From: a virus
IMG/VR virus record: IMGVR_UViG_3300030098_004824
Coordinates: 1 to 64,000 of that record
Length of the DNA stretch: 64,000 bases
Direction: 5' to 3' (one strand)
Position 1 is the first letter of the stretch; the number at the start of each line of letters is the position of its first letter. Shown here one piece after another: positions 1 to 13,910 of the stretch. Below the pieces are notes generated by a model. The model worked only from the letters and a program-made list of their open reading frames with translations, had not been told where the DNA came from and did not search any database. The position numbers and the translations under genes were made by a program.

Positions 1-129
1 TGCAGGAGTATCATAGGCATTAGGGCAGAACCAGCACTTATAGTTACAATGAGTATTGTTTTCTATTTGTGCAATTCTATAACCAAACCCACTAAATTCT
101 GGTAATGGTCTTGCTAATGCACTTGTCAT
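1..129 (-). CDS. Radical SAM protein, N-terminal fragment (cut by left edge)
   Basis: Only the first 43 codons are in the window. Reading leftwards from an ATG at 129, the peptide contains CNYKCWFC, the CX3CX2C triad that binds the [4Fe-4S] cluster of radical S-adenosylmethionine enzymes, at about residues 29-36. The start overlaps the stop of the 2OG-Fe oxygenase by one base (TAATG), so the two are probably co-translated. Radical SAM enzymes cleave SAM to a 5'-deoxyadenosyl radical; the substrate cannot be told from this fragment. The cysteine spacing and flanking aromatic residues make the family call good; the function is unknown. Confidence 0.75.
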   Translation of the reverse strand, partial: MTSALARPLPEFSGFGYRIAQIENNTHCNYKCWFCPNAYDTPA

Positions 130-956
130 TACATGCAGCGATCAAGTGGGAGATATGTGAGAGATTTGATGTCACCCATATTACCCTTGGGCCAGGTATT
201 AAATGACAAACTAATTCTCTCTTCTTCACCTATATTAGTAGGAACAGAGTGTGTAAGATTACTTGGGAATAATATTAACTCTCCTCTCTTCATTGGTAGC
301 ATAAATGTTGCACTGTTGAAAGTATTATATTGTTGTGTTTGTAATGATACATCTCTCTGCTGTCTACTTCTAAACTGAATAGGTGGCATTTGCTCATGGA
401 TTTGAGGATACCATACACCACTAATCATACTGTTCGGATGCACATGCTCATGGTGTGATTCTCCTTTCTTACTCTTATTCAACCATGACTGTGTAATGAC
501 CAATTTATCAGTAGAGGCATAGATCTTGGTCACAAATTCATGTAACTTTGCTTCAATAAATGCTCTGATGTTTGATAGTTCTGGTCTATCAAGCACAAAT
601 GTATCTTCTGACTGTCTATTATAATGTATCTTTTGACCACCTGCATCACCACCACTATTCTCCTTTCTACACTCTGCATTACGAATCCATTCTAATTCCT
701 TTGTATAATCAACTGGGTAAGGGCAAATCAATACAGGTGTAGGAAATAACTGCATCAACTCATCACCTGCTGGAGTCTGTTGTGTAGGGTATCCCATTGA
801 TGCTGGTTGTGCTTGTTCTTTCTTCTCTGGTATCTTATCAGGTGAATAAAACCCCTGTGCATTGGTTTGTTGAGGTGGAGGAGTTTGGAATCCTTGTGGT
901 TTGGGTTGTTGAGGTTTAACTCCTGTCAAATCACTAAAGTCTATTGCTGCTGTCAT
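129..956 (-). CDS. 2OG-Fe(II) oxygenase
   Basis: A 275-aa protein. Residues about 15-70 are rich in Pro and Gln and probably disordered; the rest resembles the putative 2OG-Fe(II) oxygenases common in marine T4-like phages. Visible family features are HEHVHPNSMISGVWY, with the first metal-binding histidines, and near the C-terminus LILFPSNLTHSVPTN followed by RISLSFN, with the distal His and the 2-oxoglutarate-binding Arg. Such enzymes hydroxylate or oxidise substrates using O2 and 2-oxoglutarate. The target is unknown. It is transcribed away from the + strand genes, and its stop overlaps the ATG of the radical SAM gene. On the minus strand a TATAAT lies at 983-978. Confidence 0.8.
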   Translation of the reverse strand: MTAAIDFSDLTGVKPQQPKPQGFQTPPPQQTNAQGFYSPDKIPEKKEQAQPASMGYPTQQTPAGDELMQLFPTPVLICPYPVDYTKELEWIRNAECRKENSGGDAGGQKIHYNRQSEDTFVLDRPELSNIRAFIEAKLHEFVTKIYASTDKLVITQSWLNKSKKGESHHEHVHPNSMISGVWYPQIHEQMPPIQFRSRQQRDVSLQTQQYNTFNSATFMLPMKRGELILFPSNLTHSVPTNIGEEERISLSFNTWPKGNMGDIKSLTYLPLDRCM

Positions 957-1098
957 TTTGTAGATCTATCTGTATCAATTATATATCCTTTTTCCATATA
1001 ATGCAATATATGTGTTACTGTGCCACTATACAAAGAGACTACCAAATTACCTTGGGTGAATCAAATAGGTTATACTATATCCATAACGCATTTAAAAA
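957..1098. promoter_or_regulatory. Divergent intergenic region with minus-strand -10 element
   Basis: This 142-bp AT-rich gap separates the leftward oxygenase gene from the rightward gene at 1099. On the minus strand TATAAT occupies 983-978 and, 17 bp upstream, TTGCAT at 1006-1001 is a weak -35. On the + strand TATACT at 1071-1076 could be a -10 for the rightward genes but has no good -35. No strong hairpin was seen. Confidence 0.4.
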
Positions 1099-1221
1099 AT
1101 GAGTAAAGAGATGACAAGCAAGGAGAAATTACTCTTCATTGCTTCATTTGTCTGGGCAATGCACTGGGGTGTTCGTGTTGCCTTTGCAGCAATAAGTACA
1201 TTTGAATTGAGATACTTCTAA
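1099..1221 (+). CDS. Small single-span membrane protein, unknown function
   Basis: A 40-codon ORF, MSKEMTSKEK then a hydrophobic stretch LLFIASFVWAMHWGVRVAFA (about residues 11-30) and a short tail. One membrane helix with a charged N-terminus is likely. Its TAA overlaps the ATG of the protease gene at 1221 by one base, which supports it as a real gene. No family recognised. Confidence 0.55.
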   Translation: MSKEMTSKEKLLFIASFVWAMHWGVRVAFAAISTFELRYF

Positions 1222-1661
1222 TGTTATACCTTACTCATTCTGGTTATGATTACTCTCAAAAGAGATGTGTGAATGTTGTTGAATGGTTCGTGGATGAATA
1301 TCTTTCACGTTATAATATTAACATTAATGTTCATCATTGTCGTTTAGTGAATCGTGAAGGTGTGTATGGATGGTGTTGGGCAACTGATTGTGATTACAGA
1401 CCTCGTGAATTTGATATCGAGATGCACAATCAACTTCCTATACACGATTATATCGAAACTCTATTACATGAGTTGTGGCACGTTTATCAGCACGTTAAAG
1501 GAGATCTCAAGGACAGATATGGTAAGCGTTGTTGGAAGGGTGTGGATCATTCCAAGATAGATTACGAGAATCAACCTTGGGAAAAGGAAGCAGTCAAGAT
1601 GGAGAAAATATTATATAAAAAGTACACATCTTATTTGACAACTAACTCACTTTCTTTATAA
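1221..1661 (+). CDS. SprT-like / HExxH zinc metalloprotease-like protein
   Basis: A 146-aa protein. HELWHVYQH at residues 83-91 gives the HExxH zinc-binding, catalytic motif, followed by a basic segment. Size and motif context match SprT-like minimal gluzincins found in many phages. Cellular SprT/Spartan proteins cleave proteins crosslinked to DNA; whether that is the role here is inference. It starts in a TAATG overlap with the 40-aa membrane protein and is followed one base later by the next ORF, so the cluster is probably an operon. Confidence 0.65.
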   Translation: MLYLTHSGYDYSQKRCVNVVEWFVDEYLSRYNININVHHCRLVNREGVYGWCWATDCDYRPREFDIEMHNQLPIHDYIETLLHELWHVYQHVKGDLKDRYGKRCWKGVDHSKIDYENQPWEKEAVKMEKILYKKYTSYLTTNSLSL

Positions 1662-1662
1662 A

Positions 1663-1869
1663 ATGAAAACGGCAATCAAAACTGAATTCCTTTGTGTAAA
1701 ACCAAGAACTATGGATGCACAAGATATATTTAATAATGATATGGATAAGTTACATTCTTGCAGAGTAGTAAATAGAAGGAATGGAAAAGTAATTCTTTCT
1801 TCAATTTCTAATCGTTATGATTTTGAAATGTTTGAAGGAGGAGATGATAACTGGGAGGTTATTAAATGA
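1663..1869 (+). CDS. Conserved-looking small phage protein, unknown
   Basis: A 68-aa soluble protein without a recognisable domain. It follows the protease gene by one base and its last codons overlap the next gene's ATG (ATGA at 1866), so it looks translationally coupled. Basic residues in the middle (VVNRRNGKV) precede an acidic C-terminus (EGGDDNWEVIK). Confidence 0.7.
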   Translation: MKTAIKTEFLCVKPRTMDAQDIFNNDMDKLHSCRVVNRRNGKVILSSISNRYDFEMFEGGDDNWEVIK

Positions 1870-2177
1870 GTGAAACTAAACAAGACAAATGGGAACGTGG
1901 GAAGACTCTTATGCTGGAGTCTTTGCATAAACCTGATGACAGATTGAGAGGATGTTCTCATAACCAACAATGTTATCACGAATTGATGGAGATAAGGGAT
2001 CAAGTAATTGAAATGGTAAGAGATATTCCTAATCCTTATGCTCCACCAACTAAAATACCATTTGGTAAGAAGAATGATGTTGTAACTCCTACAGTCACAA
2101 CACCAGCAGGTGAGATTAGTGAAACTTTAATGAGTGGAGCATTAGGTGATTATTATGCAGACAAGAGGGAGTATTAA
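1866..2177 (+). CDS. Small hypothetical protein
   Basis: A 103-aa protein. The N-terminal half is charged with an LRGCSHNQQCYHELMEIRDQ segment (two Cys, two His; possible metal site), and the C-terminal half is Pro/Thr-rich (IPNPYAPPTKIPFG, TPTVTTPAGE). The ATGA overlap with the upstream gene supports the start. Function unknown. Confidence 0.7.
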   Translation: MSETKQDKWERGKTLMLESLHKPDDRLRGCSHNQQCYHELMEIRDQVIEMVRDIPNPYAPPTKIPFGKKNDVVTPTVTTPAGEISETLMSGALGDYYADKREY

Positions 2178-2179
2178 TT

Positions 2180-2560
2180 ATGGCAATTTATGATGATGTA
2201 AAGATCACTATCAACCTTAATGAGTTGGTAGAGATCAGAGCAAAACTTATTTCTCAGTATGATGATTACTCAGAAAAGATATCTAAGGGTGAATACTTAG
2301 ATGGAGGTGATATTGATCGTATCGCAACTAAGTTAAGAGATACTTTAACTTGGGATACTCTTTACAGTATGGTTGATGATGCTGTTTTAGAATACTTGGG
2401 TATCAAAGAAACTCATTATGGTGAGAGAACTATTGAAACCATTGAACTAACAATGGAGAAGGAAAAGAAAGAAAGAGAGAAGGAGTTTAAGAAGAACTTT
2501 GAGATGGTTAAATTAGAAAGTTCATCATGGTCAATAGATGTACCAGTAAGAAAGAAGTAG
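2180..2560 (+). CDS. Small hypothetical protein, charged helical
   Basis: A 126-aa protein starting two bases after the preceding stop, with GGGAG upstream as a possible ribosome site. The C-terminal third is very rich in Glu and Lys (EKEKKEREKEFKKNFE) and likely helical or coiled. No family recognised. It ends the 1099-2560 gene cluster. Confidence 0.7.
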   Translation: MAIYDDVKITINLNELVEIRAKLISQYDDYSEKISKGEYLDGGDIDRIATKLRDTLTWDTLYSMVDDAVLEYLGIKETHYGERTIETIELTMEKEKKEREKEFKKNFEMVKLESSSWSIDVPVRKK

Positions 2561-2712
2561 GCATAAATTTTTATTAATATATCAGCAAACAAAGACATAA
2601 TTTGTATAAATATTAGTAGTCACCGAGAGGTACATTACGGAGAATCAAATGTATTAAATCTCTATATTATGTGTTAAACAATTAGTAAACTTTGTATTTT
2701 GGAGGAAGATTA
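2561..2712. promoter_or_regulatory. Intergenic region with late-promoter-like TATAAATA
   Basis: An AT-rich spacer of 152 bp. TATAAATA at 2605-2612 matches the T4-type late promoter core, about 100 bp before the next ATG. A GGAGG ribosome site sits at 2701-2705. Nothing else was recognised. Confidence 0.35.
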
Positions 2713-2859
2713 ATGCACAATTTAGTTTCATACAATCAATTAGCAGGGGAAGACTTTAATCCCGACAATGATGTAATTTCAGAGTATTACGAGTGCTTAA
2801 TCGAGTGTGATGAAAGTCAATCAATCTGTAAACGTATATGTAAGGAGGTTTTAGTTTAG
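2713..2859 (+). CDS. Small cyanophage protein with four cysteines
   Basis: A 48-aa ORF (MHNLVSYNQLAGEDF...), preceded by GGAGG at 2701-2705. It is acidic, and the second half carries four cysteines in the order C-x3-C and C-x3-C (ECLIEC, ICKRIC), which suggests metal binding or disulphides. Similar short proteins recur in T4-like cyanophages from memory. Function unknown. Confidence 0.7.
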   Translation: MHNLVSYNQLAGEDFNPDNDVISEYYECLIECDESQSICKRICKEVLV

Positions 2860-2940
2860 TTCATTAAAGTAGTCAACTATTCTAAGAAAATGTTACCTTT
2901 TTCCCATCCACCTTAAATAGGTCAAAAAATTAAAGAATCA

Positions 2941-2967
2941 AAAGCCCCTGTAACAGCAGGGGTTTTT
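2941..2967 (+). terminator. Rho-independent terminator
   Basis: CCCCTG (2945-2950) pairs with CAGGGG (2957-2962) across a 6-nt loop, followed by TTTTT (2963-2967). It closes the transcript carrying the 2713 gene and perhaps the upstream cluster. Confidence 0.8.
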
Positions 2968-3007
2968 GCGTTATAAATATTATTTCAGTAGAATTATCTA
3001 TTTTATT

Positions 3008-3151
3008 TTGAAGGACAAGAAAGCAGCGAAAAAGATTATTAAATTGGCAAAGAAACATCCTGATTGGTACACACCAGAAGAAGTTAAGTATGCTAAACAA
3101 GTTAAGTGGAGAATTAAACAAGAAGAAAAGGAGAGTAAGAAAAGTGGATGA
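3008..3151 (+). CDS. Small basic protein (TTG start proposed)
   Basis: The frame is open from within the terminator T-tract, but the protein-like part is KDKKAAKKIIKLAKKHPDWYTPEEVKYAK and on to the stop. I place the start at TTG 3008, giving 47 aa, because no ATG is available and this begins the Lys-rich helical segment. The amphipathic KKAAKKIIKLAKKHPDWYT pattern recurs in cyanophage small proteins from memory. ATAAATA at 2973-2979 lies 29 bp upstream. The start is uncertain. Confidence 0.5.
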   Translation: MKDKKAAKKIIKLAKKHPDWYTPEEVKYAKQVKWRIKQEEKESKKSG

Positions 3152-3245
3152 AGAATATACAGAAAAGGAATATTGGGATGGTGAAGTACCTGATGAACTA
3201 TTTGATGAGTACCTTAAGAAGTATGGTTATGATTACACTCCTTAA
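3144..3245 (+). CDS. 33-aa acidic protein (GTG start)
   Basis: GTG at 3144, 8 bp before the upstream stop codon ends, opens a 33-codon ORF reading DEEYTEKEYWDGEVPDELFD and ending DYTP. GGAGAG at 3130-3135 is a plausible ribosome site. The composition, rich in Asp, Glu and Tyr, is protein-like, whereas the competing ATG frame at 3148 gives an unlikely sequence. It is the acidic opposite of the basic protein it overlaps. Confidence 0.5.
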   Translation: MDEEYTEKEYWDGEVPDELFDEYLKKYGYDYTP

Positions 3246-3334
3246 CATAAAAATAAAGACATAATTAAGAAAGAGTGGTTTGCATAGATATTATGATATA
3301 ATTATTATCATATCCTCACATTTCTATCAAAAAA

Positions 3335-3556
3335 ATGATTAATTTAGACCAGACATACGAATCTTACTTAGATGGAAGCAAAAAGATGAGGATAGATGGT
3401 GTTGAGGAGAGAGTTAAGGCATACGGTTGGCATTGTGATGGTAATGATATTAAGGGACATTATGTAACAACAGAGAATTATCAGTTATTTTATAATATGG
3501 AAGGATTATTTACAAAGATGGTGGCACTCAGAGAACTGGCACAAACTACTGCGTGA
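3335..3556 (+). CDS. Small hypothetical protein
   Basis: A 73-aa soluble protein with no recognised domain. It begins at ATG 3335 behind a palindromic AT-rich stretch (ATGATA 3293-3298 / TATCAT 3306-3311) that includes a TATAAT. It ends shortly before an extended -10 for the next gene. Confidence 0.65.
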   Translation: MINLDQTYESYLDGSKKMRIDGVEERVKAYGWHCDGNDIKGHYVTTENYQLFYNMEGLFTKMVALRELAQTTA

Positions 3557-3569
3557 ATGAATATCTTTC

Positions 3570-3578
3570 TGGTATAAT
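3570..3578 (+). promoter_or_regulatory. Extended -10 promoter (TGGTATAAT)
   Basis: TGG directly before TATAAT (3573-3578) is an extended -10, 21 bp before the ATG of the exported protein at 3600. There is no consensus -35, which is usual for this promoter type. Confidence 0.5.
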
Positions 3579-3599
3579 AGGATTATAGATAAAAATAAA

Positions 3600-4001
3600 A
3601 TGAAAACAGCACTTGCCGTATTGTTGGCACTCACACCTGTTTCTACACTTGCTGATGAGTATCAACCAGGTTATTCTTCTTCTAAGTCTTGTTACAGATC
3701 AGAATATAGAGAAGAATATATTCCAGGAACGGAGGATCAACCTGGATATGTAAGATCTTGGAAGGAAACTATTGAGTTCCCTTGTGATAGAAATAGAGCA
3801 ACAATTACAAGACCAACAAGAACAGTAGTAGAAAGACACTATGAGGTTGATGATAATGATTGTACTGATGGGAAAGTTGCTGGTGGTATTTTAGGTGGTG
3901 GTCTTGCTGCTGCTATATCAAGAGGAGATGGTAGATGGTGGGCAATTCCATTAGGTGTTGTTGCTGGTAGTGCTATTGGATGTGATGCTGCTGGAGGTTA
4001 A
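3600..4001 (+). CDS. Exported glycine-zipper protein
   Basis: A 133-aa protein with a clear Sec signal peptide: MKTALAVLLALTPVSTLADE, hydrophobic core then an A-x-A-like site near residue 18. The mature part is Tyr/Arg-rich with three cysteines and ends in a glycine-rich hydrophobic segment (KVAGGILGGGLAAAISRGDG, then WWAIPLGVVAGSAIG), typical of glycine-zipper envelope proteins. It would act in the host periplasm or outer membrane during infection; superinfection exclusion is one possible role (inference). The first 29-bp repeat follows its stop by 5 bp. Confidence 0.7.
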   Translation: MKTALAVLLALTPVSTLADEYQPGYSSSKSCYRSEYREEYIPGTEDQPGYVRSWKETIEFPCDRNRATITRPTRTVVERHYEVDDNDCTDGKVAGGILGGGLAAAISRGDGRWWAIPLGVVAGSAIGCDAAGG

Positions 4002-4006
4002 ACAAA

Positions 4007-4035
4007 GGGGGATCGCCTAAAGTGTTCCAGTAGTG
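4007..4035 (+). repeat. 29-bp intergenic element, copy 1
   Basis: First of nine gap-free copies. GGGGATCG at element positions 2-9, TAAA at 12-15 and GT at 18-19 are intact; the downstream segment is TCCAGTAG instead of the T/A-rich consensus. It lies just after the exported protein gene and ahead of the structured non-coding region. Confidence 0.85.
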
Positions 4036-4480
4036 AGAAACAGTTGAGGGTCAAACTACTCTGACAGTTTTGAGAGGGATATGTGGTTCTACTGCCCGAA
4101 CATTCCAAGATTTCCTATATCCACATTAGTGCGAAGAAATGGTTATCTTATTAAGATCTCCTATACCAACACGAAGTTGAAGAAATGGTTATCTGATTAG
4201 TAGGGGTTCAGGTGTAAGCGATTCCCAGTAGGTAAATTTGGGCATATAGGTGAAACCTATGTCGATGCCCCACTCCCTCTCAAACAAGAAGCAGAGACAT
4301 GACGTTTGATTAAAATGACTTACCCCTCAATGTTTCTCCCACTAATTTGGGCAAGGATCTATGGTTGTCTCTGTTCAGCAGAGAAATTACGTCCTGTAAG
4401 TCCCACACACAAAAACGAGGAGATGGATGTGCCTCTGGGATCGCAACCCAAGAAAGAACTAACATCCGCTAGCTTTTTTA
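4020..4480 (+). ncRNA. Candidate structured RNA, about 460 nt
   Basis: No convincing ORF covers this stretch before 4492; the frame open from 4306 is not protein-like until MAYHHEW. The sequence is less AT-rich than its surroundings and full of complementary segments. AGTAGT 4030-4035 pairs with ACTACT, enclosing TTGA-GGG-TCAA. ATGTGG and CCACAT flank a 30-nt interior. GGGC(AT)...GCCC at about 4239-4273 encloses ATAGGT-GAA-ACCTAT. TCTCTG-TTCAG-CAGAGA lies near 4367-4383. AAGAAATGGTTATCT occurs twice. The segment ends near a T-rich run at about 4474-4490. Transcription could start at the copy-1 element. Class unknown. Confidence 0.5.
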
Positions 4481-4491
4481 TTATTTTTTCA

Positions 4492-4662
4492 ATGGCATAC
4501 CACCATGAATGGAGTCAATCTTATTTTAATGGATTGACGTTTGAAGAACACCACATCAATAATGAGTGGTTTAATGGCACATTGTCAATGTTAAAAGATG
4601 ATGGTATATTATATGTACCAGTTCTTGACAAAGAATTTAACAGACAAGGTGAGGAAGTATGA
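4492..4662 (+). CDS. Small hypothetical protein
   Basis: A 56-aa ORF starting at ATG 4492 (MAYHHEWSQSYFNGLTFEEH...). It is acidic and aromatic-rich, with no known domain. There is no evident Shine-Dalgarno, only a T-rich run before the ATG. Its TGA overlaps the ATG of the next gene (ATGA at 4659), supporting both. Confidence 0.6.
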   Translation: MAYHHEWSQSYFNGLTFEEHHINNEWFNGTLSMLKDDGILYVPVLDKEFNRQGEEV

Positions 4663-4781
4663 CTGAAAAACATTTTATTAACAAAACTGATGAAATGATT
4701 GAAGATTTCATCGAAGAATGTGAAAAGGAAGCATCAAAATTAGAAGTCACAGTTGACTATTATCTTGCCGAGTTTGTTTGA
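4659..4781 (+). CDS. 40-aa acidic helical protein
   Basis: MTEKHFINKTDEMIEDFIEECEKEASKLEVTVDYYLAEFV: strongly acidic, likely one or two helices. It starts in an ATGA overlap. Its last codons and stop lie inside the terminator hairpin, with the TGA in the loop. Function unknown. Confidence 0.6.
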   Translation: MTEKHFINKTDEMIEDFIEECEKEASKLEVTVDYYLAEFV

Positions 4782-4797
4782 CAAACTCGGTTTTTTT
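4768..4797 (+). terminator. Strong Rho-independent terminator
   Basis: CCGAGTTTG (4768-4776) pairs perfectly with CAAACTCGG (4782-4790) across a 5-nt loop, followed by seven T (4791-4797). It overlaps the 3' end of the 40-aa gene and the downstream promoter. Confidence 0.92.
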
Positions 4798-4806
4798 CTT
4801 TATAAT
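4778..4806 (+). promoter_or_regulatory. Consensus sigma-70 promoter embedded in terminator
   Basis: TTGACA (4778-4783), exactly 17 bp, then TATAAT (4801-4806): full consensus for host RNA polymerase with its main sigma factor. The -35 lies in the loop and 3' arm of the terminator. The first gene served begins at 4832. An early transcript is likely. Confidence 0.88.
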
Positions 4807-4831
4807 ACATACTATTAGTGAATACAAAACT

Positions 4832-5047
4832 ATGGCAGAAAAACTTTATACCATTTTAGAATTATCTACTAATGGTTGGCATCCAATAGAAGGAGAGGAT
4901 GTACAAATATCTAAAGCAAAATGTGATGAACGTATTAAATATCATTTGGGAAAGGGAGTTTCTCCTGAAAGATTAAAAGCAGTTGTTGATAACAGAAATC
5001 TTGGTAAAAAGGAGTTAGATTTTACAATTACAGGCGATACTGAGTAA
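4832..5047 (+). CDS. Small conserved-looking cyanophage protein
   Basis: A 71-aa soluble protein (MAEKLYTILELSTNGWHPIEG...). The ATG at 4832 is chosen over the upstream in-frame start because the latter would begin inside the terminator, before the promoter -10. It is the first gene of a host-type promoter unit and overlaps the next gene at TAATG (5047). Similar proteins of about 70 aa occur in T4-like cyanophages from memory. Role unknown. Confidence 0.75.
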   Translation: MAEKLYTILELSTNGWHPIEGEDVQISKAKCDERIKYHLGKGVSPERLKAVVDNRNLGKKELDFTITGDTE

Positions 5048-5385
5048 TGTATGAACCTCAAGTCGATGACTATGTAATTTGGAAAAGACCAAATGGCGAC
5101 TGGGAAGAGGGATGGGTTTACTTTAAGGGTGATCCAGTAGATAATGAGAAAAGAGTAAAGAGTGGATGGAATCCTGTATCACAGTATATCACTATTGAAA
5201 CTGGTGTTAGACCAAAAAAGGATTGTGTTTATACAAGTGGTAAACCAATGAGGCACAAAATGATTCATACATTATTATTGTGCAATAAAGACTGCTGGCA
5301 AGAATTAGAATATGTAAAGAACAGAAGAGATCAAGCAAGTCTTGATATGTATAAATCACAAGATGGAAGACATCCTGATTATTAG
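5047..5385 (+). CDS. Hypothetical protein, small beta-rich
   Basis: A 112-aa protein beginning MYEPQVDDYVIWKRPNGDWEEGWVYF, a pattern reminiscent of small SH3-like or KOW-like barrels (short strands, Trp/Gly turns), followed by a charged C-terminal half with two Cys. It is coupled to the upstream gene by a TAATG overlap. Its stop merges with the G-run that begins repeat copy 2. No specific function can be claimed. Confidence 0.7.
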   Translation: MYEPQVDDYVIWKRPNGDWEEGWVYFKGDPVDNEKRVKSGWNPVSQYITIETGVRPKKDCVYTSGKPMRHKMIHTLLLCNKDCWQELEYVKNRRDQASLDMYKSQDGRHPDY

Positions 5386-5387
5386 GG

Positions 5388-5416
5388 GGGGGATCGTTTA
5401 AAGTGTCCTTATTTTG
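5388..5416 (+). repeat. 29-bp intergenic element, copy 2
   Basis: All core positions are intact (GGGGATCG, TAAA, GT, TG); the downstream segment is CCTTATTT. Eight G in a row (5385-5392) join the upstream stop codon to the element. The next ATG is at 5432. Confidence 0.88.
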
Positions 5417-5431
5417 TAATTAACAATTATT

Positions 5432-5560
5432 ATGCCTGAAGATTTATTTAATCTACCTTCTGAAGATATTGAACAAATGATTCAAGATCTACCAGAAATG
5501 AATGATAAGGATGTTTCTAAATCTTTCGACAAATTCTTAAACTCTACTACCGATTTTTAA
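5432..5560 (+). CDS. 42-aa acidic protein
   Basis: MPEDLFNLPSEDIEQMIQDL then PEMNDKDVSKSFDKFLNSTTDF. Acidic, likely helical, first gene after repeat copy 2 and one base before the next gene. Function unknown. Confidence 0.55.
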   Translation: MPEDLFNLPSEDIEQMIQDLPEMNDKDVSKSFDKFLNSTTDF

Positions 5561-5561
5561 A

Positions 5562-5765
5562 ATGAAACCTGCTGCTATTCTTTATGAACTTCAAGAATTA
5601 AGAGATACTTGGAGAAAACAATCATTCTCTTTTACTGTTGAGCAACAGAAACAATATGATAGATTAACATCATTAAGAAGAGAAAGAGTTAAGTATTTTC
5701 ACGATAATAATTTAGTATGGAAGGGTGCGTCTACTGCTGGTAAAACAACTGTACAAGATAAATAA
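5562..5765 (+). CDS. Small hypothetical protein
   Basis: A 67-aa basic, helical protein (LYELQELRDTWRKQ, then LTSLRRERVKYFHDN) with no recognised domain. It directly follows the 42-aa gene. A late-promoter-like ATAAATA begins in its last codons (5758). Confidence 0.65.
   Translation: MKPAAILYELQELRDTWRKQSFSFTVEQQKQYDRLTSLRRERVKYFHDNNLVWKGASTAGKTTVQDK
5758..5764 (+). promoter_or_regulatory. Late-promoter-like motif ATAAATA
   Basis: Matches the motif seen ahead of virion genes. It lies 20 bp before the ATG of the putative internal head protein, an isolated occurrence inside the 29-bp-repeat region. Confidence 0.55.
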
Positions 5766-5783
5766 CTAAAAAGTTATATAAAA

Positions 5784-6341
5784 ATGAAAACTTTTCATCA
5801 GTTTATTGCTGAAGTATATGATAAAGATGTAGTGGGAAGATCCCAAATCACCAAACAAGGTGAGGGTGGAAGAGTAGGTGCTAAACGTAAGAAAACTGAA
5901 CCAGAAAAGAAAAGAGTGAAAGCAGTAGGTGGAGGTAAAACTGCACCTGCTAAAGATTATAAACCACGTAAAGATATTGGTACACAGAAACCAAGATCCC
6001 AACGTGAGCAACAACCAACAAAGGAAAGAGGATCTGCTGGTTTATCAGCAAGGGAGCAACAAAGGAAGGCAGCACAAGAAAGAAGAGCAGCAAAATCTGG
6101 TGCTAAAACTAAATCAGCAGATGAATTATTAAGAACAAAGGCAAAGAAAACTGTAGATCCTAAGTATAAACCAACTAAAGCATCTGGAATGACTGCTAAA
6201 GAACGTCAGTCATTAACACGTAAGGGTGAAAAGAAATTAAGAGATCTTAGACTTACTAATACTGGTAAAAAGAAAGAGAGTGAATTAAAGCATCCAGTTA
6301 CACATAAAGAAATATCAAGAAGAAAAAAACAAAATAAGTGA
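5784..6341 (+). CDS. Putative internal head protein with capsid-targeting-like N-terminus
   Basis: A 185-aa, very basic, low-complexity protein (Lys, Arg, Gln, Ala, Gly; KERGSAGLSAREQQRKAAQE). The N-terminus MKTFHQFIAE closely resembles the capsid-targeting sequence of T4 internal proteins (MKTYQEFIAE in IPIII), and I-A-E fits the (L/I)-x-E site cut by the gp21 prohead protease. I infer that it is packaged in the prohead, trimmed after residue 10, and bound to or injected with the DNA. A late-promoter motif 20 bp upstream fits. The alternative is a cytosolic nucleic-acid-binding protein. Confidence 0.6.
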   Translation: MKTFHQFIAEVYDKDVVGRSQITKQGEGGRVGAKRKKTEPEKKRVKAVGGGKTAPAKDYKPRKDIGTQKPRSQREQQPTKERGSAGLSAREQQRKAAQERRAAKSGAKTKSADELLRTKAKKTVDPKYKPTKASGMTAKERQSLTRKGEKKLRDLRLTNTGKKKESELKHPVTHKEISRRKKQNK

Positions 6342-6347
6342 ATAAAA

Positions 6348-6376
6348 GGGGGATCGCTTAAAGCGTTCTTATATTG
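6348..6376 (+). repeat. 29-bp intergenic element, copy 3
   Basis: All core positions present. Here the middle is CGCTTAAAGCG, a perfect 11-bp palindrome, and the -10-like segment is TATATT. Nearly identical to copy 5. The next ATG (nuclease-like gene) is 14 bp downstream. Confidence 0.9.
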
Positions 6377-6389
6377 AATATACTTTATT

Positions 6390-6890
6390 ATGAAACCAGA
6401 AGAAAAATATCAACAACTCTTTGAAGATATGTATTCTCTATGTGAAGAGAATAACTGGGGAGATCCCTTTAGTTATGCACGTTCTCGTGAGATACATTTA
6501 GCAGGATTACTTGGTCATCGTGTTGCAGATGATTATTCTGGTGCAGATGCTTATGATGTTAATAATAATCCAGTAGAATATAAATCTACTATTGGTAAGA
6601 AATTAACTGCAACATATAATGGTATTAGTGTACAAAATACTTGGGAAGATCAAGTTAAGTATTTACAGGAAGAAAAAATAGGTAAGTATAAACATCATTA
6701 CTACGCTAGGTATCAATCAGGCAAGGTAATTGAGGTTTACAGATTACACGCAGATGTGGTATTATCAATATTATTACCACCATTAAAGAAACAATTTGAG
6801 AGTGATAAAGTTAAGAAAGATCCTAGATTAGGATATACTATTTCTAACAAACTCATTCTACAATATGGAGAGAAAGTTTATGCTGGATAG
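6390..6890 (+). CDS. PD-(D/E)XK nuclease-like protein (possible restriction endonuclease)
   Basis: A 166-aa protein. GAD (D53) followed ten residues later by VEYK (E63, K65) fits the PD-(D/E)XK nuclease core, where these residues bind metal and cut DNA. The context GADAYD..N.PVEYKST resembles small type II restriction enzymes. The end of the gene overlaps a DNA methyltransferase-like gene, the typical layout of a restriction-modification pair. It could cut host DNA or competitors, with self-DNA protected by the methylase (inference). The recognition site is unknown. Confidence 0.6.
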   Translation: MKPEEKYQQLFEDMYSLCEENNWGDPFSYARSREIHLAGLLGHRVADDYSGADAYDVNNNPVEYKSTIGKKLTATYNGISVQNTWEDQVKYLQEEKIGKYKHHYYARYQSGKVIEVYRLHADVVLSILLPPLKKQFESDKVKKDPRLGYTISNKLILQYGEKVYAG

Positions 6891-7422
6891 TGGCAAATTA
6901 ATGTATAGTAAAGGTAATAATGATGAGTGTTATACACCACATTATGCTGTAACTCCTATCCTAAAGTATATTCCAAAGGATGCTATTGTATGGTGTCCTT
7001 TTGATACACAAGATAGTGAGTTTGTAAAACAAATTGAGAAACAAAATGAGGTAACATATTCTCATATTAATACTGGAAGAGATTTCTTTGAGTATGAACC
7101 ATTTGAATGGGATGTAATGTTATCTAATCCACCATTTACTAATAAGAGAAAGTATTTTGAAAGAGCATTATCATTTAATAAACCATTTGCATTGATTATG
7201 ACTAACACTTGGTTGAATGATTCAGCACCTAAACAGTTATTTAAAGATAGAGATTTGCAGTTGCTTATGTTTGATAAGAGAATGAAGTTTATTAGTCCTG
7301 ATGGTAGAAATAATGATAAGATAACATTTAGTAGCAGTTATTATTGTTGGAACTTCTTACCTAAACAAATAATTATGGAAGAATTGATAATTAGTGAATC
7401 TAAAGCAAAATTAATAATATAG
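6880..7422 (+). CDS. N6-adenine DNA methyltransferase-like protein
   Basis: A 180-aa protein. SNPPF (NPPF at residues 83-86) is motif IV of amino-methyltransferases, preceded by the region DAIVWCPFDTQDSEFV where a SAM-binding motif is expected. ATG 6880 is chosen because GGAGAG lies 11 bp upstream; an alternative is the in-frame codon at 6865. The start lies inside the nuclease-like gene (11-bp overlap), so the products are coupled. It is shorter than full methylases, so it may be a minimal phage type. Its stop abuts repeat copy 4. Confidence 0.6.
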   Translation: MLDSGKLMYSKGNNDECYTPHYAVTPILKYIPKDAIVWCPFDTQDSEFVKQIEKQNEVTYSHINTGRDFFEYEPFEWDVMLSNPPFTNKRKYFERALSFNKPFALIMTNTWLNDSAPKQLFKDRDLQLLMFDKRMKFISPDGRNNDKITFSSSYYCWNFLPKQIIMEELIISESKAKLII

Positions 7423-7451
7423 GGGGGATCGTTTAAACTGTCCCTATATTG
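7423..7451 (+). repeat. 29-bp intergenic element, copy 4
   Basis: GGGGATCG, TAAA and GT are intact; position 16 is C instead of G. The -10-like segment is TATATT. It starts at the stop codon of the methyltransferase and precedes the helicase ATG by 47 bp. Confidence 0.88.
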
Positions 7452-7498
7452 TACCTGTATGCTCCTGTAAGGGGTCTATTCATTTATTATGGTATATT

Positions 7499-8674
7499 AT
7501 GTTTAAATTGAGAAATCATCAATTAGCAGTACTTAGAACTTTACAAGAGAATCGTAAAGGTCAAATTATTGTGCCTACTGGTGGTGGTAAAACAATATGT
7601 ATGATTGAGGATGCTAAGTATCAATTTACAATGAACAATGTATCAAAAACTATTGTAGTTGTTGCTCCTCGCATACTATTAGCACAGCAATTATGTGAAG
7701 ATTTTTTAGAATTAATTGATAATGTGCATATTCTTCATGTACATTCAGGAGAGACACATCATACAAGCACAACTAAAATTGATTTGATTAAACAATGGGT
7801 AGGTGATAATGTTGGTAATAAGATTATATTTACAACATATCATTCACTTCATAAGTTAATAGAATCTGATGTATTTGTAGATACAATATATTTTGATGAA
7901 GCACATAATGGAGTTCAGAAGAACTTTGTTGAAGCAGTTGAGTATCATTCAATGTATGCTAATCGTTGCTATTTCTTTACTGCTACACCTAAACATTCCA
8001 AGACACCATTTAAGATAGGAATGAATGATCAAGATATATTTGGTAGGGTGTTGGTGAATGTACCAGCACCTAAATTAGTGGATGAAGGTGTTATTTTACC
8101 ACCTAAAGTTAGGATTAAAAAGATAGATGTTGTTGATGATAGTAGATTCAAGCACGAACACGATTGTGACCATCTTGTATCAACTATGGATGAAATTGAT
8201 GCAGATAAAATATTAATCTGTGCAAGATCTACCAAACAGATTGTTAATTTAGTATCACAAACTGATTTTTGTGTTGAGTTAAAACTTCGTGGATATAATT
8301 GGATGTATATTACTGCAAAAACTGGGGCAGTTATCAATGGTAAGAAAGTTGATCGTGAATCTTTCTTTAATACCCTAAACAGTTGGGGTCAGGACGATTC
8401 AAAGCGATTTGTTGTTATTCATCATAGCATATTATCTGAAGGTATTAATGTTAGAGGACTTGAAGCAGCATTATTCTTAAGAAATATGGATTACATTACT
8501 ATTAGTCAAACAATAGGTAGAGTAATAAGAAAAGGTAATGAATCTAAAACTTATGGATTGATTTGTGTACCAGTTTATGATAAAGTAGGTATATCAACAG
8601 CAAGAAAAGTTGAGGCAGTTGTTGATACTGTCTTTGATAAAGGTCAACCCGCTATTTCTACAATAACAAAATGA
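7499..8674 (+). CDS. Superfamily 2 DEAH-box helicase (UvsW-like class)
   Basis: A 391-aa helicase. Walker A PTGGGKT at residues 26-32, DEAH at 133-136, TATP at 161-164 and the arginine-finger motif QTIGRVIRKG near 330-341 are all intact, so it should be an active ATP-dependent DNA or RNA translocase. T4 UvsW, which remodels forks and R-loops, is the nearest functional analogue; this protein is shorter, so I do not assign the symbol. It follows repeat copy 4 and its stop overlaps the next ATG (ATGA at 8671). Confidence 0.85.
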   Translation: MFKLRNHQLAVLRTLQENRKGQIIVPTGGGKTICMIEDAKYQFTMNNVSKTIVVVAPRILLAQQLCEDFLELIDNVHILHVHSGETHHTSTTKIDLIKQWVGDNVGNKIIFTTYHSLHKLIESDVFVDTIYFDEAHNGVQKNFVEAVEYHSMYANRCYFFTATPKHSKTPFKIGMNDQDIFGRVLVNVPAPKLVDEGVILPPKVRIKKIDVVDDSRFKHEHDCDHLVSTMDEIDADKILICARSTKQIVNLVSQTDFCVELKLRGYNWMYITAKTGAVINGKKVDRESFFNTLNSWGQDDSKRFVVIHHSILSEGINVRGLEAALFLRNMDYITISQTIGRVIRKGNESKTYGLICVPVYDKVGISTARKVEAVVDTVFDKGQPAISTITK

Positions 8675-9102
8675 TTACATTAGCATTAGTAACTGGTGGA
8701 TTCGATCCATTACACTCAGGTCACATTGCATATTTCAATGCAGCAAAAGAATTAGGTGATAGTTTATGTGTTGCAGTTAATTCAAATGATTGGTTAATTA
8801 GAAAGAAAGGGAAATACTTTATGACTGCACCTGAAAGAATTTCTATCATTTCAGAGTTAAGAATGGTGGATGCTTGTATAGAATTTAATGATAAAGATGA
8901 TACTGCTAATGATGCAATTAAGATGGCATTAGAGGTTTACGATAACATTATTTTTGCAAATGGTGGTGATCGAGGTAATACAAACACCCCAGAATATGAA
9001 GAGTTTAAAGATGATAATAGAGTCAAATTTGCGTGGGGTGTTGGTGGTGATGATAAAAAGAATAGCAGTTCTTGGATATTAGATAGGTGGACAACAAAAT
9101 GA
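8671..9102 (+). CDS. Cytidylyltransferase-like nucleotidyltransferase
   Basis: A 143-aa protein with GGFDPLHSGH (residues 9-18), the HxGH signature of the TagD/RfaE C-terminal family that transfers a nucleotide to a phosphorylated sugar, glycerol or similar. NGGDR in the C-terminal half matches the second conserved region. Possible use: making an activated precursor for surface or DNA modification (inference). It overlaps the helicase stop and the following membrane protein ATG. Confidence 0.8.
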   Translation: MITLALVTGGFDPLHSGHIAYFNAAKELGDSLCVAVNSNDWLIRKKGKYFMTAPERISIISELRMVDACIEFNDKDDTANDAIKMALEVYDNIIFANGGDRGNTNTPEYEEFKDDNRVKFAWGVGGDDKKNSSSWILDRWTTK

Positions 9103-9344
9103 CTAAAAAAATACACCCTCGTGAATATATGTCTAATGACTACTGGAAGTATAATTTAGATGAACCAGAATATAAACGTGGATCTCTTCATAATAAAATA
9201 GGTATGATAATTATGTTTATTTTCTATGGTATAGTTTTAGTACAATTATTACACGCATTTACTATAATACCATTTTTTCCTATTACTTTCACAATCTTAT
9301 TAGGATTATTGTTTATAGTTTATGTTGCGTGGAGGGCATCTTGA
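9099..9344 (+). CDS. Two-span membrane protein
   Basis: An 81-aa protein from ATG 9099 (ATGA overlap with the cytidylyltransferase). A polar N-terminal 34 residues precede two hydrophobic segments (MIIMFIFYGIVLVQLL and PFFPITFTILLGLLFIVYVA). Inner-membrane location likely. Function unknown. Confidence 0.65.
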   Translation: MTKKIHPREYMSNDYWKYNLDEPEYKRGSLHNKIGMIIMFIFYGIVLVQLLHAFTIIPFFPITFTILLGLLFIVYVAWRAS

Positions 9345-10273
9345 AAGATACTATTTTGTTTGGAGATTGTCTCCAAACACTTAAACAATTCGATGAAAAA
9401 GCAAGGTGTTGCATCACATCTCCACCTTATTATGGTTTAAGAGATTATGGAGGGGAGGATTGTCAGATAGGACAAGAAGAATCTCCAGAAGAGTATATTC
9501 AAAAATTAGTATTAGTATTCCAAGAGGTGCGTAATAATTTAACAGAAGATGGAACATTGTGGTTAAACATTGGAGATAGTTATTATAACTATAGACCTGG
9601 AAAAGGTCAATCATTAGTTAAACAAACTGTTTCTGCTAATAAACAAGATTTACCAGACAAATGTGCAAGAAGAGGTAACAAACTAAAAGGATATAAAGAG
9701 AAAGATTTAATTGGTATTCCCTGGATGTTAGCATTTGCATTAAGAGCAGATGGATGGTATTTAAGACAAGATATTATATGGCATAAACCTAATCCAATGC
9801 CCGAAAGTGTGAAGGATAGATGTACTAAATCCCACGAATATTTGTTCCTCTTAAGTAAGAACAAGAGGTATTATTATGACAATGAAAGTATCAAAGAACC
9901 AGCAAAAGATTGGGGAACAAGAGATAGAACTAAAGGAAAATATCACAATAAAGGTACAGGATTACAACCTCATTCTGGTCTTACTAAATCATATCCAAAG
10001 AAGAATAAAAGGTCAGTTTGGAGTATAACAAATAAACCATATAGAGGGGCACATTTTGCAACTTTCCCAAGAGATTTAGTGGAACCTTGTATATTAGCAG
10101 GTTCACAAGTTAATGATATTATTCTTGATCCTTTTATGGGATCTGGAACAACAGCAATGGTAGCAAAAGACTTGGGAAGATATTACATAGGGTGTGAATT
10201 GCACGAAGATTATGGTAAATTAATAAAAAACAGAATATGTGAACAAGGGGGATCGCTTAAAGCGTTCTTATAG
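9341..10273 (+). CDS. DNA methyltransferase, beta-class amino-MTase
   Basis: From the proposed TTG start the protein has 310 aa. TSPPY at residues 26-30 is the catalytic motif IV, and DPFMGSGTT at about 263 is the SAM-binding motif I; the order IV before I defines the beta class, N4-cytosine or N6-adenine. TTG 9341 is chosen because GGAGGG lies 5 bp upstream and the codon forms a TTGA overlap with the preceding stop; GTG 9329 is an alternative. The last eight residues (GGSLKAFL) are encoded by repeat copy 5. Site specificity cannot be read from sequence. Confidence 0.85.
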   Translation: MKDTILFGDCLQTLKQFDEKARCCITSPPYYGLRDYGGEDCQIGQEESPEEYIQKLVLVFQEVRNNLTEDGTLWLNIGDSYYNYRPGKGQSLVKQTVSANKQDLPDKCARRGNKLKGYKEKDLIGIPWMLAFALRADGWYLRQDIIWHKPNPMPESVKDRCTKSHEYLFLLSKNKRYYYDNESIKEPAKDWGTRDRTKGKYHNKGTGLQPHSGLTKSYPKKNKRSVWSITNKPYRGAHFATFPRDLVEPCILAGSQVNDIILDPFMGSGTTAMVAKDLGRYYIGCELHEDYGKLIKNRICEQGGSLKAFL

Positions 10274-10275
10274 TG
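10247..10275 (+). repeat. 29-bp intergenic element, copy 5
   Basis: All core positions present, with the CGCTTAAAGCG palindrome and TATAGT. It lies inside the 3' end of the methyltransferase gene, whose TAG stop is within the element. Confidence 0.9.
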
Positions 10276-10384
10276 TAAGGGATATGCACAGAGCAGACCT
10301 TGAAACTTAAATGATTTCAAGGCATCACAGAAGAGAAATTGCAAGTTCTCACTCCTTTACATCTATTGTTTATTTTCAAACTAA
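10276..10384 (+). promoter_or_regulatory. Structured leader after repeat copy 5
   Basis: CCTTGAAA and TTTCAAGG form an 8-bp stem near 10298-10322. TGTAAGG just after the element can pair with CCTTTACA near 10361, and GAGAA with TTCTC. A folded 5' leader of about 110 nt is possible. No ORF is convincing here. Confidence 0.45.
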
Positions 10385-10690
10385 ATGGCAACACGCAGAC
10401 GCACATCAGCAACTCGCAAAACTGCTAAATCTGCTCCCGCTATTGTTAAGGAATCAAGGGCAAGTGTTAAGAAAGTTACAACAACTGCCCCAAAACGTGT
10501 AAATAAAGTTACACCGAAGAAGGTAATTGAAGTGGCAGAAGTAACACCAACTCCCGTAAAAGATACCCTTAACTTAGAGAAACTATTCAAGGATTATCCT
10601 CGTGATGGTTTCGCACTTGCTCTCCTTCCTTTACTATTATTGGAAGCATTAACCAAAGAAGGTTTAAAGATAGCAGGTGTAATTTCGTAA
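10385..10690 (+). CDS. Basic N-terminal, hydrophobic C-terminal small protein
   Basis: A 101-aa protein. Residues 1-50 are Lys/Arg/Thr/Ala-rich (MATRRRTSATRKTAKSAPA), like a histone-type or nucleoid-binding tail. The second half has FALALLPLLLLEALTKEGLKIAGV, a hydrophobic helix. Perhaps a membrane-anchored or oligomerising DNA-binding protein (inference). It is followed by a terminator. Confidence 0.65.
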   Translation: MATRRRTSATRKTAKSAPAIVKESRASVKKVTTTAPKRVNKVTPKKVIEVAEVTPTPVKDTLNLEKLFKDYPRDGFALALLPLLLLEALTKEGLKIAGVIS

Positions 10691-10703
10691 AGAATATTAC
10701 ATT

Positions 10704-10727
10704 GGGGGTTGAAAGATCCCCTTTTTT
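10704..10727 (+). terminator. Rho-independent terminator with GAAA loop
   Basis: GGGGGTT (10704-10710) and GATCCCC (10715-10721), with two wobble pairs, close a GAAA tetraloop, followed by six T (10722-10727). Confidence 0.85.
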
Positions 10728-10749
10728 ATGTTAAAATGAATTTATTATT

Positions 10750-11667
10750 ATGCAAAACAAACACATTGAACATCCTGAAGATTCCATTCTAAATGGTGAT
10801 TTAGATGTATTAAATTGGTTTACCACTAATGGTAAAATAACAGCAAAGATTGATGGTGCTCCAGCAATAGTTTGGGGGACTAATCCTGTTAATAATAAAT
10901 TCTTTATTGGAACTAAAAGTGTCTTCAACAAAAAACTCATCAAAATCAACTATAACCATACCGATATTGATAGAAACCATCAAGGAAAAGTGGCAGATAT
11001 TTTGCATATCTGTTTTGACAATCTTCCTGATACAAGTAATATCTACCAAGGTGATTTCATCGGTTTTGGTGGCACTGATTCTTTCAATCCTAACACCATC
11101 AGATACATTTTCCCAGATAAGATTACCCAAGAAATAGTAATAGCACCGCACACATCTTACACCACTAATGGTGATTTAAGAGATGCAATTGCAAGACCTA
11201 TTAGTGATAAAGAACTAATATCTTTATGGCAAGATGCAGAAGATGTTTACTTTGTTTATCCTGAAGTAACATTAGATCAGGAAAGAGATAGTATAATCGA
11301 AAGATGCAAATTTGCAAGACAAATTGCAACTTTATGTGAGTTCCCTAATGATAAACAAGTAAAAAGGATTAAGAAGCAATTAAATACTTGTATTCGTGAA
11401 GATATAGAGATAGATGATATAGTACAGGAAGTACTTGCTAATGATAACAATATAGACGTAAATGTATTGCGTTTGTGGAAATTAGTGCAGACAATTAAGC
11501 ACGATATGTTTAACTATATTTCGTGTAATGATGATGTTGAATGTTACATTGAGGAAGAATATTGCGATCACGAAGGATATGTAATGGTAAATGAGTTTGG
11601 TACATTTAAGATCGTTAATCGTGAAGGATTTAGTAAAGCAAACTTCAATCTCTCTAAAATGAGATAA
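10750..11667 (+). CDS. ATP-dependent ligase-like nucleotidyltransferase
   Basis: A 305-aa protein. KIDGAP at residues 33-38 matches motif I (K-x-D-G) of DNA/RNA ligases and capping enzymes, with K33 the expected AMP-accepting lysine. EGYVM near residue 277 resembles motif IV, and FKIVNREGFSKANF motif V. I infer nick or RNA-end sealing. It is not close enough to T4 Rnl1, Rnl2 or gp30 for a symbol. It is the only gene between the terminator and repeat copy 6. Confidence 0.6.
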   Translation: MQNKHIEHPEDSILNGDLDVLNWFTTNGKITAKIDGAPAIVWGTNPVNNKFFIGTKSVFNKKLIKINYNHTDIDRNHQGKVADILHICFDNLPDTSNIYQGDFIGFGGTDSFNPNTIRYIFPDKITQEIVIAPHTSYTTNGDLRDAIARPISDKELISLWQDAEDVYFVYPEVTLDQERDSIIERCKFARQIATLCEFPNDKQVKRIKKQLNTCIREDIEIDDIVQEVLANDNNIDVNVLRLWKLVQTIKHDMFNYISCNDDVECYIEEEYCDHEGYVMVNEFGTFKIVNREGFSKANFNLSKMR

Positions 11668-11668
11668 A

Positions 11669-11697
11669 GGGGGATCGTTTAAAGTGTTATAATAGTG
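11669..11697 (+). repeat. 29-bp intergenic element, copy 6
   Basis: All core positions intact. Here the T/A-rich part reads TATAATAG, so a full TATAAT lies at 11688-11693. It begins one base after the ligase-like stop. Confidence 0.9.
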
Positions 11698-11758
11698 AGG
11701 ATATACATCCATTTCTGGTTAGGAATCCTCACTTTAATTTCATTTCTTTATTTTGTTT
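11693..11758 (+). promoter_or_regulatory. Leader hairpin after repeat copy 6
   Basis: AGTGAGGAT beginning at 11694 and ATCCTCACT ending at 11735 form a 9-bp perfect stem at the very start of the predicted transcript. A T-rich leader then runs to the ATG at 11759, with no Shine-Dalgarno. Confidence 0.5.
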
Positions 11759-12178
11759 ATGTCAACTTTACCTGAAAGAGTTCTCGATTGGACTGAAACC
11801 TATTGTGAATCTCTTACAGAAAATTACAAACAACATAGTGTAAGAATGTATGAAAGTTCAACATCTGACTATTCAAAACAGTGTTTGGAAAATGTAAAGA
11901 ATGGCACTGCTAATCTTACTAACTTTGTTATCAAGAATGGTCGCAAGTATTACAAGATTATGCAACGTGAATTTGATACTTTCCAAGATCGTAATGAATG
12001 GAGAGAAGGATGTGTTCACGCATTTGTTGATAAGAATACAGGTGAAGTTTACAAACCTGCTTCTTATAATTCACCAGCAAAGCACGTTAGATATGATTTA
12101 AGGATCATAAATGATCGTGCTAAGTTACACAATCCAGACTATACTGGATGGGCAGGTGGTTATCTCTATATGAGATAA
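11759..12178 (+). CDS. Hypothetical cyanophage protein
   Basis: A 139-aa soluble protein starting MSTLPERVLDWTETYCESLTE. It is charged and Tyr-rich, and ends AGGYLYMR. The ATG at 11759 is preferred to the upstream in-frame TTG. Similar proteins recur in T4-like cyanophages from memory. No domain recognised. Confidence 0.7.
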   Translation: MSTLPERVLDWTETYCESLTENYKQHSVRMYESSTSDYSKQCLENVKNGTANLTNFVIKNGRKYYKIMQREFDTFQDRNEWREGCVHAFVDKNTGEVYKPASYNSPAKHVRYDLRIINDRAKLHNPDYTGWAGGYLYMR

Positions 12179-12214
12179 TCACCATTTTTACTATACCATA
12201 AGGAGGTTAATTCA

Positions 12215-12442
12215 ATGTATTCAAGTGACACTTTTGGAAGAATCTTCTGGGTTGATGAAGATTTAGAGTTCAGATCTTGCCCACTAAATGTTGATGGGAC
12301 TGGTGATTTTACCTGCGAAGATTATGTATCAGAGTGGGATGATTGGAGTGAGGTTAATTATAGTTTGCTCTTCCAAATTCACAAGACTTGTTTACATTTA
12401 AAACAAGATCATCACAATTCAGTTAATTTAGTAGGAGTTTAA
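12215..12442 (+). CDS. Small acidic protein
   Basis: A 75-aa protein preceded by a strong AGGAGG (12201-12206). It is rich in Asp and Trp (EDYVSEWDDWSEVNYS), with three Cys. No family recognised. It starts a run of tiny adjacent or overlapping genes. Confidence 0.65.
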   Translation: MYSSDTFGRIFWVDEDLEFRSCPLNVDGTGDFTCEDYVSEWDDWSEVNYSLLFQIHKTCLHLKQDHHNSVNLVGV

Positions 12443-12447
12443 TTATT

Positions 12448-12630
12448 ATGTCAAATATCAACAACGAAGCAATATTAGAGTCACTATATGATGAAGTATG
12501 GGAGGAATTCCGTATTGCTAATAAACTAACTGATGACCAAATGTATGAGTTAGAGCAGTCAAATAGTGGTGGTACTTTCGATCAGTTAGTATCAACAACT
12601 AATCAAAGATTTGAGGATTTATGCCAATGA
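12448..12630 (+). CDS. 60-aa acidic protein
   Basis: Acidic, helical (ILESLYDEVWEEFRIANKLTDDQ). It follows the previous gene by 5 bp and overlaps the zinc-ribbon gene. Function unknown. Confidence 0.6.
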   Translation: MSNINNEAILESLYDEVWEEFRIANKLTDDQMYELEQSNSGGTFDQLVSTTNQRFEDLCQ

Positions 12631-12812
12631 TTACAACAACTGTTTCATTCAAACCTATCACAAAACGTGCAAGATGTGGTAAATGGGGCAAGCATATTAT
12701 GTGCCCTAATTGTAAATCAATCAGCAAAGTTTATCATTTTAGTTGGTCAGGATTACAATGTTCTCAATGTTATAAAACAATAGATAAATTACATTGGAGT
12801 GTAGAACAATGA
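12621..12812 (+). CDS. Zinc-ribbon protein
   Basis: A 63-aa protein with CPNC and CSQC separated by about 20 residues, a four-cysteine zinc ribbon, in a basic context (KPITKRARCGKWG). Nucleic-acid or protein binding likely. The start may instead be ATG 12627, which forms an ATGA overlap with the upstream stop. Confidence 0.65.
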   Translation: MPMITTTVSFKPITKRARCGKWGKHIMCPNCKSISKVYHFSWSGLQCSQCYKTIDKLHWSVEQ

Positions 12813-12949
12813 AATGGGACGTTAAGTTATACGTAGGCGGTCAAGTCTTCGTAGAAAGTGTTAGAGCAGTCAACTATTCTGATGCAAAAGAAACAGCATT
12901 GGCACGTAATCCTAAAGCAAAGTTTATATCAGCAAACCCAATTCCGTAA
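12809..12949 (+). CDS. 46-aa hypothetical protein
   Basis: MKWDVKLYVGGQVFVESVRAV then NYSDAKETALARNPKAKFISANPIP. The strand-helix pattern with YSDAKETALARNP is typical of a small phage family I know from T4-like cyanophages. ATGA overlap with the zinc-ribbon gene. Role unknown. Confidence 0.65.
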   Translation: MKWDVKLYVGGQVFVESVRAVNYSDAKETALARNPKAKFISANPIP

Positions 12950-12955
12950 AGTAAA

Positions 12956-13192: not shown

Positions 13193-13194
13193 TG
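13166..13194 (+). repeat. 29-bp intergenic element, copy 7
   Basis: All core positions intact; the T/A-rich part is CCTATTAA, identical to copy 8 there. It overlaps the end of the 12956 gene. Confidence 0.9.
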
Positions 13195-13636: not shown

Positions 13637-13638
13637 TT

Positions 13639-13908: not shown

Positions 13909-13910
13909 CA

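Follow-up and report, generated by a model that had tools for sequence, protein, structure and literature searches.

P0001, a 185-residue basic protein of a marine cyanobacterial phage, is probably a late-made internal head protein that docks through an N-terminal tag, is cut by gp21, packs with the DNA and is ejected into the host. It is encoded in the window, the whole stretch of 64,000 nucleotides analysed here (positions 1 to 64,000 of IMG/VR record IMGVR_UViG_3300030098_004824). An earlier note had read the open reading frame at 5784-6341 as carrying a capsid targeting sequence of the T4 type. The frame was confirmed (+ strand, ATG start, 185 aa) and the capsid-targeting reading is supported, since the residues defined in T4 are conserved, the late motif recurs, gp21 and gp22 are both present, and tagged proteins occur in the virion proteomes of other cyanophages. 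The ten N-terminal residues almost certainly serve as a tag for loading into the head. The tag on P0001 and the use of the tag are supported by the sequence and by homologously tagged virion cargo; we infer the cleavage, DNA binding and ejection of P0001 and any activity in the host. The features of the locus are:

5758..5764, + strand: late-promoter motif ATAAATA, ending 19 bp before the P0001 ATG
5784..6341, + strand: P0001 coding sequence, 185-aa basic protein with an ATG start, comprising the tag, a low-confidence basic middle and a helical C-terminus
5784..5813, + strand: capsid-targeting sequence MKTFHQFIAE of the T4 internal-protein type, codons 1-10
5811..5816, + strand: predicted gp21-type cut I-A-E/V, between codons 10 and 11 (L/I-X-E rule, PMC9026906; [ILMV]-x-E in relatives)

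The window derives from a 77,556-base (77.6 kb) virus record with the gene content of a T4-like cyanomyovirus. Terminase, sheath stabiliser and baseplate genes are also present in the record, and gp23 follows just behind. Two head genes lie inside the window:

61269..61919, + strand: homologue of the prohead protease gp21 (phrog_207 head maturation protease, E 1e-82)
61969..63066, + strand: homologue of the gp22 scaffold (phrog_237 head scaffolding protein, E 3e-111)

The former is expected to be the processing enzyme for the tag and the latter its core partner. Among the baseplate wedge genes there is a single ORF of 4583 aa (window 21606-35357). No Rfam families were found within window positions 1-16000.

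The likeness to T4 at seven of ten positions, claimed in the earlier note, holds: MKTFHQFIAE is 7/10 identical to the MKTYQEFIAE of IPII and IPIII. The next-best of the 637 candidate starts in the window reaches 5/10, and 0.0 matches of at least 7/10 are expected by chance when residues are shuffled behind all 637. At least seven identities to the T4 tag were seen at six of 38,634 candidate starts from this virus, T4 and other cyanophages, a figure that counts the window copy twice and in which both 10/10 matches are T4 IPII and IPIII. The FxxF..E pattern, set before any proteome was read, has a single matching start, whether the window or the full 77.6-kb record is scanned; 0.1-0.4 would be expected. 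Mutational work in T4 has linked residues 4 and 7 with targeting and residues 8 and 10 with processing, and the gp21 cleavage rule is L/I-X-E (PMC9026906). The gp21-type I-A-E site described for P0001 is present in the sequence, and 38/39 relatives have [ILMV]-x-E, including cases in which the spacing is shifted by three residues.

A similar start is seen in T4 gene 61.1 (NC_000866 18966-19130, - strand). Its 54-aa product, gp61.1, has MKTFKEFIKE at its N-terminus, sharing 7/10 residues with the T4 tag, and on this sequence likeness it is a candidate unrecognised internal protein.

Relatives of P0001 were found by tblastn and pattern search on viral contigs, 44 in all, and in the isolates S-SM2 (SSM2_065), P-TIM68, SynMITS9220M01 and S-B05. 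The family is present in 10 of 50,697 phage records (8 once duplicate RefSeq entries are removed), and no relatives came up when seven other complete cyanophages were searched with the whole protein. The family alignment holds 39 distinct sequences, 33 of them with the standard tag spacing, and the FxxF...E start is kept in all 39. Across those with standard spacing, K2, F7 and E10 never differ; F stands at position 4 in 31 sequences and L in 2, a single sequence departs from I, L, M or V at position 8, and residues 5, 6 and 9 vary. Variants with three extra residues (FNLICEA, FMSLCEA, FLTICEA) retain [IL]-x-E. The codons for K2, T3, F4, F7, I8 and E10 drift synonymously among the relatives; as the kept residues are written with differing codons, selection acts on the peptide. 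The isoelectric point stays at 10.3-10.8 across all 39 relatives. A superfamily II helicase gene is commonly located downstream of the relatives, and restriction/methylase-like neighbour genes are inconstant.

The late motif that the earlier note placed 20 bp upstream is indeed found there, as ATAAATA (5758-5764), where it overlaps the preceding ORF's stop. The sequence NATAAATA has been described as the late promoter of the cyanophage S-PM2 (PMC2984593). Within 60 bp upstream, [AC]TAAATA precedes 23/33 P0001 relatives versus 17/360 other ORFs of the same loci, and it occurs in 1.5% of random 60-mers. The Fisher p of 5.5e-19 for this enrichment is nominal, because the relatives are not independent. 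The motif mostly stands 25-33 bp before the ATG. About a third of the relatives have no late motif directly upstream, and most of these come straight after another small gene. Judged by the motif, P0001 may be expressed late.

Another intergenic element, GGGGGATCGnyTAAAgyGTyC, is repeated in the window in nine copies, on the + strand only, against 0.03 expected (positions 4007, 5388, 6348, 7423, 10247, 11669, 13166, 14421 and 16681). A TATA-rich stretch often follows, and one copy begins 7 bp past the P0001 stop. A related form occurs in 10 copies on one strand of S-SM2 and is absent from eleven other sequences searched. The element is possibly a lineage-specific promoter. Adjoining P0001, a phrog_35715 protein (window 6390-6890) lies beside a short methyltransferase-like protein (6865-7422), and the S-SM2 neighbourhood of phrog_35715 includes a gene labelled restriction enzyme. 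The two may form a restriction-modification-like pair that varies among relatives.

Past the predicted cut (IAE/V), the mature chain would comprise 175 aa (19.6 kDa, pI 10.7, net charge about +34), with Cys and Trp absent. The earlier description of the chain as disordered is only partly right, as the C-terminus is confidently helical in the AlphaFold2 model. In that model the tag forms a helix at residues 4-11, residues 12-88 are of low confidence (pLDDT about 45-62), and about residues 141-185 reach pLDDT 88-95, with C-terminal helices at 138-160 and 174-184. Searches of Pfam and PHROGs gave no credible family (PF18208 and PF09595 were weak and below cut-off), and Pfam did not find the SAM lyase domain (PF23780). 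A profile search of solved structures gave weak bromodomain matches only (E 0.5), and Foldseek of the model against the PDB gave no match. The mature chain had no T4 match at E 0.01 in the phage collection searched, which includes T4, and no PHROG match to the IPI, IPII or IPIII families. Since neither a family, a structure nor a fold match was obtained, DNA binding by the mature chain is suggested by its charge and by analogy with the T4 internal proteins.

The virus encodes a second tagged protein:

record 74320-74817, past the window: S-adenosylmethionine lyase, starting MITFQEFCSRLDESS (PF23780, E 9e-19, Pfam)

This gene also has a late motif upstream. In the aligned part its product is 52-58% identical to a SAM hydrolase listed among the virion proteins of S-CREM2. 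Modelling of its fold gave a poor result (pLDDT 49), and the weak top matches include the phage SAM lyase 6zm9 and the T3 SAM lyase 7ock/8bb1. Relatives were found as 381 stretches in viral contigs, with the FxxF tag in 39/39 distinct sampled starts. Common descent of P0001 and the SAM lyase was considered owing to the GG- and R-rich stretch that follows the tag in both. It was rejected, as a profile comparison of the two families aligns residues 1-9 and not the rest, which indicates unrelated proteins sharing one portable tag. From its sequence, the SAM lyase is predicted to be a head-packaged anti-restriction enzyme.

The earlier note had suggested searching cyanophages for tagged starts, and such a search finds the tag on unrelated proteins reported from virions by published mass spectrometry. 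In complete cyanophages, scanned with the pattern and with its DNA version, FxxF..E matches are few (0-7 starts per genome) and are often T4-GC190, annotated "cytitidyltransferase". According to the main text of PMC3037559, T4-GC190 was determined experimentally to be a virion protein in S-SM1, where its N-terminus is MKKFSAFLNEA. The NMNAT of S-SCSM1, a virion protein according to the main text (PMC9602691), starts MKSFLQFLKE; for both phages virion status is taken from the main text and the record annotations. In the displayed proteome table of S-SZBM1 (PMC9146016), the virion cytidylyltransferase of 362 aa was paired by length and homology with an ORF starting MRFRQFIIEA. With S-CREM2, tagged cytidylyltransferase/NMNAT is thus listed in the virions of four phages, and 80/80 viral contigs retain this tag. 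In S-PM2 a genome scan turned up nothing convincing as a tagged protein; the cytidylyltransferase region of this phage lies outside any stand-alone tagged ORF.

A DUF6267 protein of the window (10750-11667) contains KIDGAPAIVWG, which resembles a nucleotidyltransferase/ligase motif, and PHROG 455 groups the DUF6267 family together with the virion-packaged type of cytidylyltransferase. It was tried as a tagged protein and rejected, as the copies in the window, S-SM1 and S-SM2 are without a tag start.

The fullest set comes from S-CREM2 (OR473000), where five non-structural proteins listed in Table 3 of PMC10665884 are tagged (ORFs 6, 13, 14, 136 and 154). The SAM hydrolase starts MKDFDSFLEE, the APH-like kinase (V)KRFDAFLTEE and the cytidylyltransferase MKNFSSFLTEA; the two small proteins ORF13 and ORF136 start MKDLHSFLTE and MQTFSMFFSE. 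Looser likenesses are seen in ORF15 (MNFSEFNES) and, internally at residues 18-26, in the Cas9-like ORF12 (RFASFMAEA). None of the 24 structural virion proteins in the table has the tag. Out of 3,854 possible starts a refined pattern selects five, each of them in a listed virion gene (5/5); its hypergeometric probability of 6e-4 is post hoc, the pattern having been derived from these same proteins. The pre-set pattern gives a weaker result on the same list: six matches, 4/6 in virion genes, p about 0.03. The S-CREM2 authors cautioned that such non-structural virion proteins could be carry-over (PMC10665884). A common targeting peptide argues against this.

The unrelated non-structural virion proteins of S-CREM2 share FxxF-[LMF]-x-E, an address that goes unmentioned in the consulted part of the published description.

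P0001 resembles T4 IPII and IPIII (and IPI) in its targeting decapeptide, which has aromatics at 4 and 7 as well as an I/L-x-E site, in its basic mature chain and in being a predicted late gene of a T4-like phage. It differs in its unrelated mature sequence, its cyanobacterial host, its helical C-terminus and its length, about twice that of IPI and IPII. With T4-GC190, which is reported in virions, it shares the N-terminal signature; T4-GC190 is, however, a folded enzyme (PF01467) and a cyanophage core gene, whereas P0001 lacks any known domain and is patchily distributed. The S-CREM2 SAM hydrolase, as listed, and its relative at 74320-74817 are likewise basic with a tag and a short linker, but have the SAM lyase domain (PF23780). 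T4 Alt is packaged, cut by gp21 near its N-terminus and injected (PMC9026906). The route proposed for P0001 from its sequence would be the same, although Alt is an ADP-ribosyltransferase with a different propeptide.

Under the proposed scheme, P0001 would be expressed late, driven by a late promoter of its own. The amphipathic MKTFHQFIAE would dock it to the gp22 scaffold core through the aromatic residues 4 and 7, and gp21 would then cut after E10 to free a 175-residue chain of charge +34 inside the head. The freed chain may bind DNA and help to pack it, and would enter the next host together with the ejected genome. The tag itself would be a portable address, also carried by SAM lyase, cytidylyltransferase and kinase cargo.

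What the packaged protein does can be read in two ways. It is possible, though short of probable, that P0001 is an IPIII-like head-assembly cofactor, whose basic chain aids the acidic scaffold or genome packing and whose delivery is incidental. The tag, basic chain and late motif are the same as in T4 IPIII, mutants of which show slow head assembly and a burst of about 40% (PMC9026906), and the Pfam, PHROGs, structure-profile and Foldseek searches found no enzymatic domain. The patchy family is unlike a core assembly factor, yet the T4 internal proteins are patchy too. The second reading takes IPI as its model. T4 IPI inhibits a host restriction enzyme, and P0001 could, on a tentative view, be an injected anti-defence or host-takeover protein whose chain or C-terminus attaches to incoming DNA or to a target in the host. 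Cargo of the anti-restriction type is represented by the tagged SAM lyase of the same virus and its relative listed in S-CREM2 virions; the patchy distribution of the family fits as well, and the confident, conserved C-terminal helices of the model suggest a folded binding part. Against this, P0001 is without homology to any known inhibitor in Pfam and PHROGs, and the nearby restriction/methylase-like genes vary among relatives.

It is unlikely that the N-terminus binds the core or another phage protein without packaging or cleavage, with P0001 acting in the infected cell. Two small tagged proteins would suit such a role: SSCSM1_30 (MKTFKQFMSE), which is without virion annotation, and SSZBM1_191 (MKSFKSFLSE), which is without it and is missing from the displayed parts of the proteome table. 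The rarity of the motif, its marking of listed virion genes in S-CREM2 and the maintenance of [ILMV]-x-E among relatives speak against it. A chance likeness on an ordinary basic protein is scarcely credible: ten residues are a short signal, but the shuffling expectation is about 0, conservation over 39 sequences with synonymous drift contradicts chance, and the tag occurs independently on unrelated virion proteins.

As a late-made internal head protein, P0001 would represent a new family of cargo for the targeting system known from T4, which seems not to have been documented in cyanophages. No literature linking the capsid targeting sequence to cyanophages was found in a search that mostly covered papers outside subscription, so that earlier notice is possible; one paper contains both "capsid targeting sequence" and "cyanophage", the latter in a reference title only. 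"CTS-like" basic proteins have been mentioned for close T4 relatives (PMC9026906). The chances are about even that marine T4-like cyanophages load a swappable arsenal by way of M-K-[ST]-F-x-x-F-[IL]-x-E and deliver it before expression begins, with P0001 an abundant, host-range-relevant member. Such an arsenal would comprise basic DNA-binding proteins, SAM lyase, a nucleotidyltransferase, an APH-like kinase and possibly a Cas9-like nuclease.

Cyanophage virion enzymes, including NMNAT/cytidylyltransferase, SAM hydrolase, the kinase and the Cas9-like nuclease, could not be separated from contaminants by the authors who reported them. A common targeting peptide would allow packaged proteins, probably the first to be injected, to be predicted by rule from sequence. 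The phages concerned infect the most abundant of all photosynthetic organisms, and their genomes alone would then suffice to list first-minute effectors for testing, some of them candidates for an anti-restriction role.
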